This document shows positions 23,386 to 62,362 of a stretch of DNA of 64,000 nucleotides, in pieces; positions within the stretch are counted from its first letter, which is position 1, and each line of letters starts with the position of its first letter. The notes beneath the pieces are model-generated. The model saw only the letters and a program-made list of their open reading frames with translations. It made no database searches and was not told the DNA's origin. Origin of the DNA: an uncultured Alphaproteobacteria bacterium (GTDB taxonomy: Bacteria > Pseudomonadota > Alphaproteobacteria > Rhodobacterales > Rhodobacteraceae); contig CACNDI010000003.1 in the NCBI GenBank assembly GCA_902619165.1, positions 62,001 through 126,000 of the forward strand. The letters run 5' to 3'. The translations under genes were made by a program, and so were the position numbers.

Positions 23386-24816
23386 TTATATATCTTGATT
23401 ATCTTGCCTCAGAATTACTCCAGGATTTAGAATAGTGAGAGGATCGATGGCTTTCTTAATCTGACGCATTACATTAAATTTCCCAGGGTCACAATACTGT
23501 TCTAAGTCTTTAACCTTTAATCGACCAACTCCATGCTCTGCACTAAATGAGCCTCCCAAGCCTTTGCAATTATTATTTACAACCTTAGTCAATTTAGATT
23601 TAATCTTTGCATAATTAGATTTTTTTTCTTCCCGGGGAGGAAATATATTGAAGTGTAAGTTTCCATCTCCCATATGCCCAAAGCAATTTACTCTTAGAGA
23701 TTTATTTATTTCTTTTATCTCATAAAGGCTTTTATTTATAAAACTTTCCATATTTTCCAGTGGCAGAGCAATATCATGAGACGTAATTGCCCCAATTTTT
23801 CTATTAGCCTCAGGTATATCTTCTCTCATTTTCCACAACTTTCTTGCTTTAGTCTCTGTATCACCAAGAACTACATGCGAAATAATATTTTTATTACAAA
23901 GCTCGTCCAAAGCTTCATATACATCTTCCTCAACTGAACTATTGTTGTAACCAAATTCAATCAAGACATGCCAATCTGATTTACTTCTTTGGATGGTTGA
24001 TTGAACCATTTCCGTTTCTTCAAGAAATCGCAATCCTACATCACTAATTAACTCAAACGCCTGCAAATATTGCCCAAACCTTTTGGATAATTCTAAGTAA
24101 CTTTTTAAGGCTGCATCAAAATTGTTCACTCCAAAAAATGCCACAACTTTATTTTGAGGAGTAGGATAAAGCCTTAAAACGGCTCTTGTGATTACACCCA
24201 AAGATCCTTCAGAACCAATAAACAGGTTTTTTAAGTCATATCCTGTGTTATCCTTTTTGAGTGTCTTTATATCATTAATGATAGAGCCGTCAGCCAATAC
24301 GACCTCAAGTCCTAAACAAAGATCTCTTGCGTTTCCATATTTTAATACCCCAATTCCGCCTGCATTTGTTGCCAAGTTTCCACCTATACAACACGTCCCC
24401 TTTGATGCCATTGATAAAGGATATAAAAAATTTTTTTTGTCTACAAATTCATGGATCGTTTCCAAAATTACACCAGCTTCAACCTCTATAGATTGATTGA
24501 TAGAAGAAAAGTTTTTAATCTTATTCATCCTTTCCAAAGATAAAATTACGCTATATTTATCTGGGGCGATTTGTCCTCCTACCAGTCCAGTGCCACCACT
24601 CCAGGGCACAACTCCAATTTTATATTGTGTAGCAAGTTTCAAACACTCAGAAACCTCTTTAGTCGATCTAGGCTTAATCACATAACGAGATTGATTTTTA
24701 TATAAACCCCGAGGTTCTGATAGATAGGAGGAAGAAATATCAGTAATACTATTATTTGAAAGTGTGTTTCTAATATTTCTTATGAACTCAAAGTAATCTT
24801 CTTCTTTCTCTATTAT
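23386..24816 (-). CDS. GlcD-type FAD-binding dehydrogenase, apparent ATA start
   Basis: This is a flavin dehydrogenase of the D-lactate/D-2-hydroxyglutarate/glycolate oxidase GlcD family. It has an FAD_binding_4 domain with PWSGGTGLVGGQ and GGNLATNAGGIGVLKYG and a FAD-oxidase C domain with FGHMGDGNLHFN, SFSAEHGVG and LNPGVIL. The best guess is D-2-hydroxyglutarate or D-lactate dehydrogenase; the acceptor is unknown. The ORF track begins at a GTG at 24681, inside the FAD domain. The open frame continues upstream through the family-typical SEPRGLYKNQSRYV to ATA codons at 24816/24813, with AAGGAG seven bases before the first ATA. No ATG, GTG or TTG exists between. The start therefore appears to be AUA, giving 476 residues, the usual length. 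It begins just after the stop of the RimJ-like gene. Confidence 0.85.
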   Translation of the reverse strand: MIEKEEDYFEFIRNIRNTLSNNSITDISSSYLSEPRGLYKNQSRYVIKPRSTKEVSECLKLATQYKIGVVPWSGGTGLVGGQIAPDKYSVILSLERMNKIKNFSSINQSIEVEAGVILETIHEFVDKKNFLYPLSMASKGTCCIGGNLATNAGGIGVLKYGNARDLCLGLEVVLADGSIINDIKTLKKDNTGYDLKNLFIGSEGSLGVITRAVLRLYPTPQNKVVAFFGVNNFDAALKSYLELSKRFGQYLQAFELISDVGLRFLEETEMVQSTIQRSKSDWHVLIEFGYNNSSVEEDVYEALDELCNKNIISHVVLGDTETKARKLWKMREDIPEANRKIGAITSHDIALPLENMESFINKSLYEIKEINKSLRVNCFGHMGDGNLHFNIFPPREEKKSNYAKIKSKLTKVVNNNCKGLGGSFSAEHGVGRLKVKDLEQYCDPGKFNVMRQIKKAIDPLTILNPGVILRQDNQDI

Positions 24817-24817
24817 T

Positions 24818-25399
24818 TTAGCTCTCCTTCACTCGCCCTCTTCTATCATTTCTTAACAAGCCATATAAAACGTGATTTCTCCAACGACCATTTATTTGCA
24901 AATAGCTTTGCCCCACTCCTTCATATTTAAAACCAACTCTTTCCAAAAGCCCTCGAGAAGATTTATTTTCTGGGAGGGTAGCTGCCTCCAATCTTGAAAT
25001 ATTTAATTTGTTAAAAGAAAAGTCGATAATAGTCAAAACCGCTTCTCTCATAAAACCCTTACCTGTGTGCTCCTTACCTAGCCAATAACCCAAAGTTCCC
25101 GCATTAGAGGGCCCCTTCCTAATGTTTTCAATAGTGATTGACCCTAACAGATTTTGAAATTTATCGAAAATGAAAAATTGGAATGCTTGGCCTGCTTTAG
25201 AACTTTTCTTTGCCCACCTAACTCTACTATTAAATGCATTACGCTTAAAAAAATCATTGTCTCTTTTCGGCTCCCATAACTCTAAAAATGCTCTGCTATT
25301 CTCTCTTAGATTACGCCACTGGTCAAAATCACTATATTGAGGCCCTCTTAGTTCTAACTTTGTTGATTTCAATATAATTTCGGGTTTACCAAAAATCAT
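24818..25399 (-). CDS. RimJ/RimL-type GNAT acetyltransferase
   Basis: The 193-residue protein resembles the ribosomal-protein-alanine acetyltransferase RimJ. It starts with a strand-forming KLELRGPQYSDFDQW and WRNLRENSRAFLELWEP. The acetyl-CoA-binding segment GTLGYWLGKEHTGKGFMREAV has the R/Q-x-x-G-x-G position read as HTGKGFM (near residue 125), followed by ISRLEAATLPENKSSRGLLERVGF, a hallmark of this subfamily. A substrate other than S5 cannot be excluded. It lies 25 bases after thrC. In Rhodobacterales as I recall, an M16 peptidase gene separates thrC from this acetyltransferase; here it is absent. Its stop codon abuts the ATA start of the FAD-dehydrogenase. Confidence 0.87.
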   Translation of the reverse strand: MIFGKPEIILKSTKLELRGPQYSDFDQWRNLRENSRAFLELWEPKRDNDFFKRNAFNSRVRWAKKSSKAGQAFQFFIFDKFQNLLGSITIENIRKGPSNAGTLGYWLGKEHTGKGFMREAVLTIIDFSFNKLNISRLEAATLPENKSSRGLLERVGFKYEGVGQSYLQINGRWRNHVLYGLLRNDRRGRVKES

Positions 25400-28340: not shown

Positions 28341-28889
28341 TTATGATTTGGTCTCTTCTTCTAGTTTATAAAAAGTATATGACAATGTCAGCGATTTTAT
28401 ATTCCTAGTTTCAATATTCTCATCAATTTCTGGATCAATGTAGAATGTTACTGGCATCTTTACTCGCTCTCCTGGCTGCAAAGTTTGCTCGACAAAACAA
28501 AAGCAGTCGATTTTACTGAAATAGTTTCCCGCAGAGAACGGAAAAACGTTGAAGCTAGCTTGACCAGAGATAGTGTCACTAGTTGGATTGTGTGCTTCAT
28601 AAAAAACTAGTGCTGTTTCTCCAATTTTGACCTCCACCTCATTTTGCATTGGTATGAAGTTCCACCTCATATCTTTGGCCTTTGAAGCATCAAATCGAAC
28701 TTTAATTGTTTTATTTAAGATAGGGCCATCGAACGATTCCGAATAAGTTTCGGGTGTACCGCCATAGCCTGTAACCTTGCAAAACCAATCATAAAAAGGT
28801 ACCGCTGCGAACGATGCGGAGAGCATTATGCATACAAGTCCTATCAAGTATATTGGTGTACGTTTTGGTCTTTCAGAATTATTTATCAT
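28341..28889 (-). CDS. ctaG: Cytochrome c oxidase assembly protein CtaG (Cox11 type)
   Basis: CtaG delivers copper to the CuB site of subunit I. The 182-residue product has an N-terminal membrane helix (residues about 13-32) that serves as anchor. The periplasmic immunoglobulin-like domain includes the copper-binding CFCF within KIDCFCFVEQTLQPGE and a closing FYIDPEI segment. The Cys-x-Cys is intact, so it should be functional. It overlaps the 3' end of the small coxF-like ORF by 11 bases and precedes ctaE. Confidence 0.95.
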   Translation of the reverse strand: MINNSERPKRTPIYLIGLVCIMLSASFAAVPFYDWFCKVTGYGGTPETYSESFDGPILNKTIKVRFDASKAKDMRWNFIPMQNEVEVKIGETALVFYEAHNPTSDTISGQASFNVFPFSAGNYFSKIDCFCFVEQTLQPGERVKMPVTFYIDPEIDENIETRNIKSLTLSYTFYKLEEETKS

Positions 28890-61078: not shown

Positions 61079-62362
61079 ATGGAAAAGCAAATTACATTTA
61101 TAAATGCAAGATTAATCGATCCTAAAGTAGAAATAGAAACAGCAGGGACTTTAACAATAAATGGTGGTTTAATAGACAAGAAAGATGATGGAATTAAAGG
61201 TAAGGTAATTGATTGCAAAGGAATGTGTTTAGCACCTGGTATCGTAGATATTGGGGTTAAGGTATGCGAGCCTGGCGAGAAACATAAGGAAAGCTTCAGA
61301 TCTGCTAGCAGTGCTGCTGCCGCTGGAGGTGTCACTAGTTTAGTAACCCGTCCAGATACAAAGCCTTCAATAGATAATCCAGAACTACTAGAATTTTTTA
61401 AAAATAGAGGTAAAGAAGCTAGTAAGGTTAGAATATTTCCTACTGCATCTTTAACAAAAAGAAATAATGGGAAAAAGATGACAGAAATTGGCTTCCTTCA
61501 TGATGGCGGTGCTGTTGCATTTACTGATGGCTTTAACCCGATCCCCAATACTAAAATTTTTCACCAAATTTTGAAATATGCCTCTGATTTTAACACCCTT
61601 ATCATAGGACATCCTCAAGACTATTTTTTAACAAAAAATACCTCAGCTACGAACGGAGTTTTTGCATCAATTAAAGGACTTTCATCCAGCCCTGATTTTG
61701 CAGAAAAGATTGGAATAGAACGCGATACAGCGCTGATCAGTAATTTAAACATCCGTTATCACGCAGACCAAGTTACAACAAAAATCGGCTTAGATGTGCT
61801 AAGAGATATAAAAGCGACAAACAACCGTATAACGGCTGGAACTTCTATTCACCATCTTTTATTCAATGAACTTGATATAGGAAACTATAGAACATTTTTT
61901 AAATTAAAACCACCGTTAAGAAGTAACGCTGACAGAGAGGCTTTGACGGAAGCAATACGAGAAGGACTGATTGATAATATTTGCTCCATGCATACACCTC
62001 AGGATGAGGAAAGCAAAAGGCTCCCTTTTGAGGAGGCCGCGCCGGGTGCTGTAGGTCTTGAAACAATATTACCTGCATCTCTTTCGTTATATCACAATAA
62101 GATATTAAGTCTTAATCAGCTTTTTCGATTATTAGCTTTAAACCCGGCAAATATCATTAAGAAGAGTTTGGGGTGTCTAGACGAAGGTCAGCCAGCGGAC
62201 ATTATTATTTTTGACCCAGATAAACCTGTGAAAATAGATCGATTCCGGTTTCAGTCAAAATCGCAAAATACTCCTTTTGATGGCTTTAATTTACAAGGTG
62301 AAAACTTGTTAACAATGGTTGAGGGCGAAATTATTTTTAAAAAAAATTCGTTTGAAGTATGA
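61079..62362 (+). CDS. pyrC: PyrC-like dihydroorotase homologue, probably non-catalytic
   Basis: The 427-residue protein belongs to the dihydroorotase/amidohydrolase family. Residues typical of an active enzyme are missing: the D-x-H-x-H motif after LAPGIVDIG reads GVKVCEPGEKHKE (no His pair), and the TDHAPH-type motif reads SMHTPQDEESKRLPFEEAA. Framework motifs persist (FRSASSAAAAGGVTSLVTRP; FKLKPPLRSNADREALTEAIREGLID). This is the pattern of PyrC' proteins that assemble with PyrB (known in Pseudomonas). A separate active dihydroorotase is then needed elsewhere. It is one base after pyrB. Confidence 0.85.
   Translation: MEKQITFINARLIDPKVEIETAGTLTINGGLIDKKDDGIKGKVIDCKGMCLAPGIVDIGVKVCEPGEKHKESFRSASSAAAAGGVTSLVTRPDTKPSIDNPELLEFFKNRGKEASKVRIFPTASLTKRNNGKKMTEIGFLHDGGAVAFTDGFNPIPNTKIFHQILKYASDFNTLIIGHPQDYFLTKNTSATNGVFASIKGLSSSPDFAEKIGIERDTALISNLNIRYHADQVTTKIGLDVLRDIKATNNRITAGTSIHHLLFNELDIGNYRTFFKLKPPLRSNADREALTEAIREGLIDNICSMHTPQDEESKRLPFEEAAPGAVGLETILPASLSLYHNKILSLNQLFRLLALNPANIIKKSLGCLDEGQPADIIIFDPDKPVKIDRFRFQSKSQNTPFDGFNLQGENLLTMVEGEIIFKKNSFEV

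Follow-up and report, generated by a model that had tools for sequence, protein, structure and literature searches.

An apparent AUA start codon in a GlcD-like dehydrogenase gene shared by eight congeneric species of Rhodobacteraceae

A gene for a GlcD-like, FAD-linked dehydrogenase is most plausibly translated from AUA, a very rare start codon, in one clade of at least eight congeneric marine species. We give this reading a probability of about 80%. Two ATA codons stand side by side at the head of the frame; the first (position 24816) is the most likely initiator and the second (24813) a less likely one. An AAGGAG motif would position the initiator tRNA, and re-initiation after translation of the upstream gene probably helps. 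Loss of the canonical start probably predates the divergence of the clade. Purifying selection has acted on the gene ever since, which makes initiation at AUA the best reading of the locus. The case is built on four elements, namely the missing alternative start, the constraint on the gene, the Shine-Dalgarno geometry and a parallel with infC.

Results

The start region

The window, i.e. the whole 64,000-nt stretch of DNA analyzed here, contains the dehydrogenase open reading frame on the minus strand at positions 23386-24816; counted from the first ATA, it has 476 codons and ends in TAA. The frame is bounded upstream by an in-frame TGA (24829-24831). In the direction of transcription, this TGA (24831-24829) is followed by AGG AGA GCT AAA, the first ATA (24816-24814), the second ATA (24813-24811), GAG AAA GAA and further codons up to TAT, and then by GTG (24681-24679, codon index 45), which sits 45 codons after the first ATA and is the first canonical start. 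Neither ATG, GTG nor TTG occurs in the frame from TGA 24831 to GTG 24681. The initial annotation had described a frame open to both ATA codons without a canonical start down to this GTG, as well as an AAGGAG seven bases before the first ATA, and both observations were confirmed on the minus strand. A third in-frame ATA, at 24783, was missing from it.

The Shine-Dalgarno motif AAGGAG (24829-24824, minus strand) ends 7 nt ahead of ATA 24816, inside the 3' end of the upstream gene, which encodes a GNAT acetyltransferase (RimJ/RimL-like; 24818-25399, minus strand). The TAA stop codon of this gene (24820-24818) precedes ATA 24816 by 1 nt, a geometry of the termination-reinitiation type. The spacing after GGAG is 7 nt to the first ATA and 10 nt to the second, and it ranges from 3 to 8 nt in most genes of the window and their orthologues, which supports 24816 as the start. 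The window was also scanned for frames of at least 100 codons in which a Shine-Dalgarno-spaced ATA, ATT, ATC or CTG is followed by the first canonical start only after 10 codons or more; only the dehydrogenase gene and one weak frame of 143 codons at 61488 were returned.

Conservation in related genomes and history of the start

The two ATA codons, the AAGGAG motif and the upstream TGA are identical in seven other congeneric species (G006, G019, G005, G015, G007, G016 and G002), whose dehydrogenases share 89-96% protein identity with that of the window. In seven of the eight ATA-ATA species, a canonical start is absent before codon 45; the exception is G016, the only species in which codon 8 has turned from TTT into TTG (loci L008 and L142).

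A base-call error had been offered as an explanation for the missing ATG in the initial annotation, and the genome is indeed an incomplete draft. The same bases are nevertheless present in eight separately assembled species genomes, which rules out a base-call or assembly error, and the intact, constrained dehydrogenase gene speaks against decay in a single strain. Taken together, error and single-strain decay are hardly credible.

In a tree built from codons 45 onward of the dehydrogenase gene, the eight ATA-ATA species (the genome of the window included) form one clade with 100% bootstrap support, and G011 is their sister, also with 100% support. Outside the clade, the position of the second ATA is occupied by TTG in G004, G009, G010, G012 and G014, by ATG in G001 and G018, and by TTT in G011. 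The position of the first ATA is ATA in G011, G004, G010 and G014, ACA in G012, and AAA in G009, G001 and G018. The first ATA is thus the sole near-start common to all nine species (the eight and G011), which favors 24816 as the start codon. The comparison proposed in the initial annotation, i.e. a search for ATG at 24816 in relatives, yielded no genome with ATG at that position; seven congeners have TTG or ATG one codon downstream, at 24813.

Most simply, these distributions point to an ancestral start at 24813, either ATG or TTG, followed by the appearance of ATA one codon upstream, where the distance to the Shine-Dalgarno motif is more favorable. The TTG at 24813 would then have disappeared in the common ancestor of G011 and the eight species; it may also have been lost twice independently. 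For G011, another possible start is an ATG in the same frame, 11 codons upstream. The few independent events behind the ATA start all concern one clade. The suggestion that an ATG had been lost by mutation holds in a modified form: TTG or ATG at 24813 in relatives indicates that an ancestor of the clade probably gave up a canonical start, and a loss at strain level is excluded.

The genomes outside the clade also bear on recoding, either as read-through of TGA 24831 from an ATG at 24849 or as programmed +1 slippage out of the acetyltransferase frame at AGC UAA A. The frame is open up to the position of ATG 24849 in G004, G009-G012 and G014, and the acetyltransferase stop has a Shine-Dalgarno-like AAGGAG ahead of it, both of which would suit such an event. 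Within the clade, however, ATG 24849 is not conserved (GTG in G002, GCG in G007), and in G007 the frame ahead of the TGA lacks any canonical start. An ordinary ATG start follows the acetyltransferase stop in G001 and G018, the slip site is not accompanied by a prfB-type CUU UGA, and all of the extension would coincide with acetyltransferase sequence read in a different frame. We rejected read-through and frameshifting on the unconserved ATG in the clade and on G001 and G018, and consider recoding highly improbable.

The encoded protein and the GTG at 24681

The dehydrogenase contains the FAD_binding_4 and FAD-oxidase_C domains of the GlcD/D-2-hydroxyglutarate dehydrogenase superfamily. Its score against TIGR00387, the GlcD equivalog, is 287.9 bits and falls below the curated cutoff of 567.9, so that 'GlcD-like' is the correct name and not GlcD proper. 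The best solved relatives are 3PM9, with a match that spans residues 29-468, and mitochondrial D-2-hydroxyglutarate dehydrogenase. The genes of these closest solved proteins are not known for an AUA start.

An EPRG motif (24706-24717, minus strand; residues 34-37) lies upstream of GTG 24681. Across 36 homologues, P35 and R36 are invariant and E34 and G37 nearly so. The AlphaFold2 model has a mean pLDDT of 85.7, and residues 2-18 are predicted with confidence as a helix (block pLDDT 84-92). Codons 32-42 contain six silent and no replacement changes among the eight species, which indicates that translation begins before codon 32.

Initiation at GTG 24681 would produce a protein without the first 45 residues. 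It has in its favor that this GTG is the first canonical start and that it is kept in all eight ATA-ATA species, but it has no Shine-Dalgarno sequence ahead and its position is GTA, GTC or ATA in several congeners. A start at this site would moreover drop EPRG and the predicted helix, and it would leave the silent-only pattern of codons 32-42 upstream of the coding region. On the grounds of selection, motif and structure model, GTG 24681 was rejected as the main start, and we regard it as very unlikely.

Selection along the gene

From codon 45 onward, the dehydrogenase gene shows 197 silent and 125 replacement changes, and its pairwise dN/dS is about 0.17; this part of the gene is constrained. 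Codons 2-28 (24730-24810) have a different profile, with 12 replacement changes and not a single silent one in the clade, compared to 16 silent and 31 replacement changes on the other branches. Control genes have 7-26 silent changes across their first 27 codons. Selection in the clade consequently leaves the translation of codons 2-28 unproved. Its rate of change is several-fold below that of silent sites elsewhere in the gene, so that the stretch is constrained; in the clade, there is no sign of selection on its amino acids, and this constraint looks to be mainly at the nucleotide level. Local recombination was considered as an origin of the scarcity of silent differences around the start and rejected, with a total divergence of 0.033-0.066 per 60-nt bin, which is at the low end of the range of the locus and hardly outside it. 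Folding of the RNA near the start gave no significant structure (z = 1.05 and 0.52).

The difference between codons 2-28 and the control genes is what an untranslated leader would explain: codons 1 to ~28 would have turned into a conserved leader in this clade, and translation would begin from a non-canonical start near codon 26 (AUU 24738) or codon 23 (AUU 24747). Neither AUU is preceded by a Shine-Dalgarno sequence, the frame is intact in every species with zero indels, and the leader would include both the confidently predicted helix of residues 2-18 and a stretch that changes more slowly than silent sites, without a significant RNA fold being found. We therefore find a leader of this kind very unlikely, and prefer translation of the whole frame from AUA.

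The persistence of ATA is weak evidence when taken alone. About 0.5-0.7 changes from ATA to ATG would be expected in the clade under neutrality and none was observed (P about 0.5-0.6), so that selection for keeping AUA is not demonstrated; half of the internal ATA codons of the gene are invariant too.

infC as a positive control

Loci of infC, the gene for the start-codon-checking translation factor IF3, were compared within the genus and the wider family (L150-L179 and L124-L136; the copy of the genome of the window is L136, G000:C28). At nearly all of them, a Shine-Dalgarno sequence precedes the apparent start. In the genus, no canonical start codon is available at the conserved N-terminus of infC. 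Its start region consists of AAGGAG, 6 nt, and then ATC (11 species) or ATA (two species, G018 and G011). In the wider family, the apparent start is ATA in 28 of 30 genera and ATC in the other two. AAGGA lies 8 nt upstream of the start in most genera, which is the same AAGGA-to-ATA distance as at ATA 24816. Among the internal isoleucine codons of the family infC genes, only 4 of 299 are ATA, which implies that the ATA at the infC start is no ordinary isoleucine codon. Given its place at the infC start, its rarity internally and the shared spacing, AUA is very probably a functional start codon in this family, as judged from these alignments. In the open-licence literature, we found no published AUA starts of infC in Rhodobacterales. 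Searches of the genome of the window for the initiator tRNA and the anti-Shine-Dalgarno sequence, performed with E. coli-type queries, gave no match and carry no weight either way.

Discussion

Of the explanations put forward in the initial annotation, initiation at AUA has gained the most support, as eight species share the ATA-ATA arrangement in a gene that is under purifying selection. In the mechanism that we propose, the 30S subunit would be bound by AAGGAG inside the end of the acetyltransferase gene, and the initiator tRNA would pair with the near-cognate AUA through a third-position mismatch. Ribosomes that end translation of the acetyltransferase at UAA, 1 nt away, would probably assist by re-initiating. 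The expected outcome is weak initiation that is probably sensitive to IF3. We infer each of these steps, i.e. AUA initiation, the share of re-initiation, the weak expression and the IF3 sensitivity. IF3 is known to disfavor non-canonical starts (PMC5472188), and over-expressed IF3 reduces re-initiation (PMC2268962); sensitivity of the dehydrogenase to IF3 is expected on both accounts. A more tentative extension is that an AUA start in a metabolic gene, fixed through several speciations, acts as a low-gain, IF3-sensitive switch coupled to upstream termination, in which the level of IF3, whose own gene apparently starts at AUA or AUC in this family, would set IF3 and the dehydrogenase together. 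We consider this possible but doubtful.

The closest experimental parallels come from Staphylococcus aureus. There, AUA initiation of infC was shown by footprint, and initiation-stalled ribosome profiling revealed AUA starts of ccpN and citZ, whose reporters reached about 10-30% of the level of AUG (PMC13009471). These two genes resemble the dehydrogenase gene in the AUA start and the strong Shine-Dalgarno sequence, and the AUA of ccpN is likewise conserved across species (PMC13009471). They differ in belonging to Firmicutes, in having been shown experimentally, whereas the dehydrogenase start is read from sequence, and in that they are not known to be coupled to an upstream stop. The infC genes with AUU, AUC or AUA starts also combine a near-cognate start with a good Shine-Dalgarno sequence, and the AUA infC genes of the family have the same spacing. 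In contrast to the dehydrogenase gene, which is metabolic and directly follows the stop of another gene, infC encodes the codon-sensing factor itself and is autoregulated. The sigR gene of Streptomyces is a further case of a conserved non-canonical start outside infC that was missed by gene callers; this start is repressed by IF3 and offers a model for IF3 control of the dehydrogenase (PMC5472188). It differs in its codon (GTC), in encoding a sigma factor and in having experimental evidence. A published reconstruction of 61,358 ancestral AUG starts lists one change to AUU and none to AUA (PMC5622118).

For annotation, gene callers limited to ATG, GTG and TTG would trim 45 residues off the dehydrogenase. 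The gene would extend the known class of non-canonical starts by an alphaproteobacterial AUA start that is conserved and lies outside infC. The history of this start can be reconstructed from the ATG or TTG of relatives and the ATA of a single clade. Alongside infC, which has an apparent AUA start in 28 of 30 genera of the family, it provides a comparative system for the origin and upkeep of near-cognate starts.

A change between ATG and ATA was also seen at the first codon (28887-28889) of the gene at 28341-28889, which is ctaG/cox11-like by its neighbourhood. This codon is ATG in other congeners and ATA in G009 (L148), where an ATG follows the ATA at codon 2 and the start has shifted by one codon.
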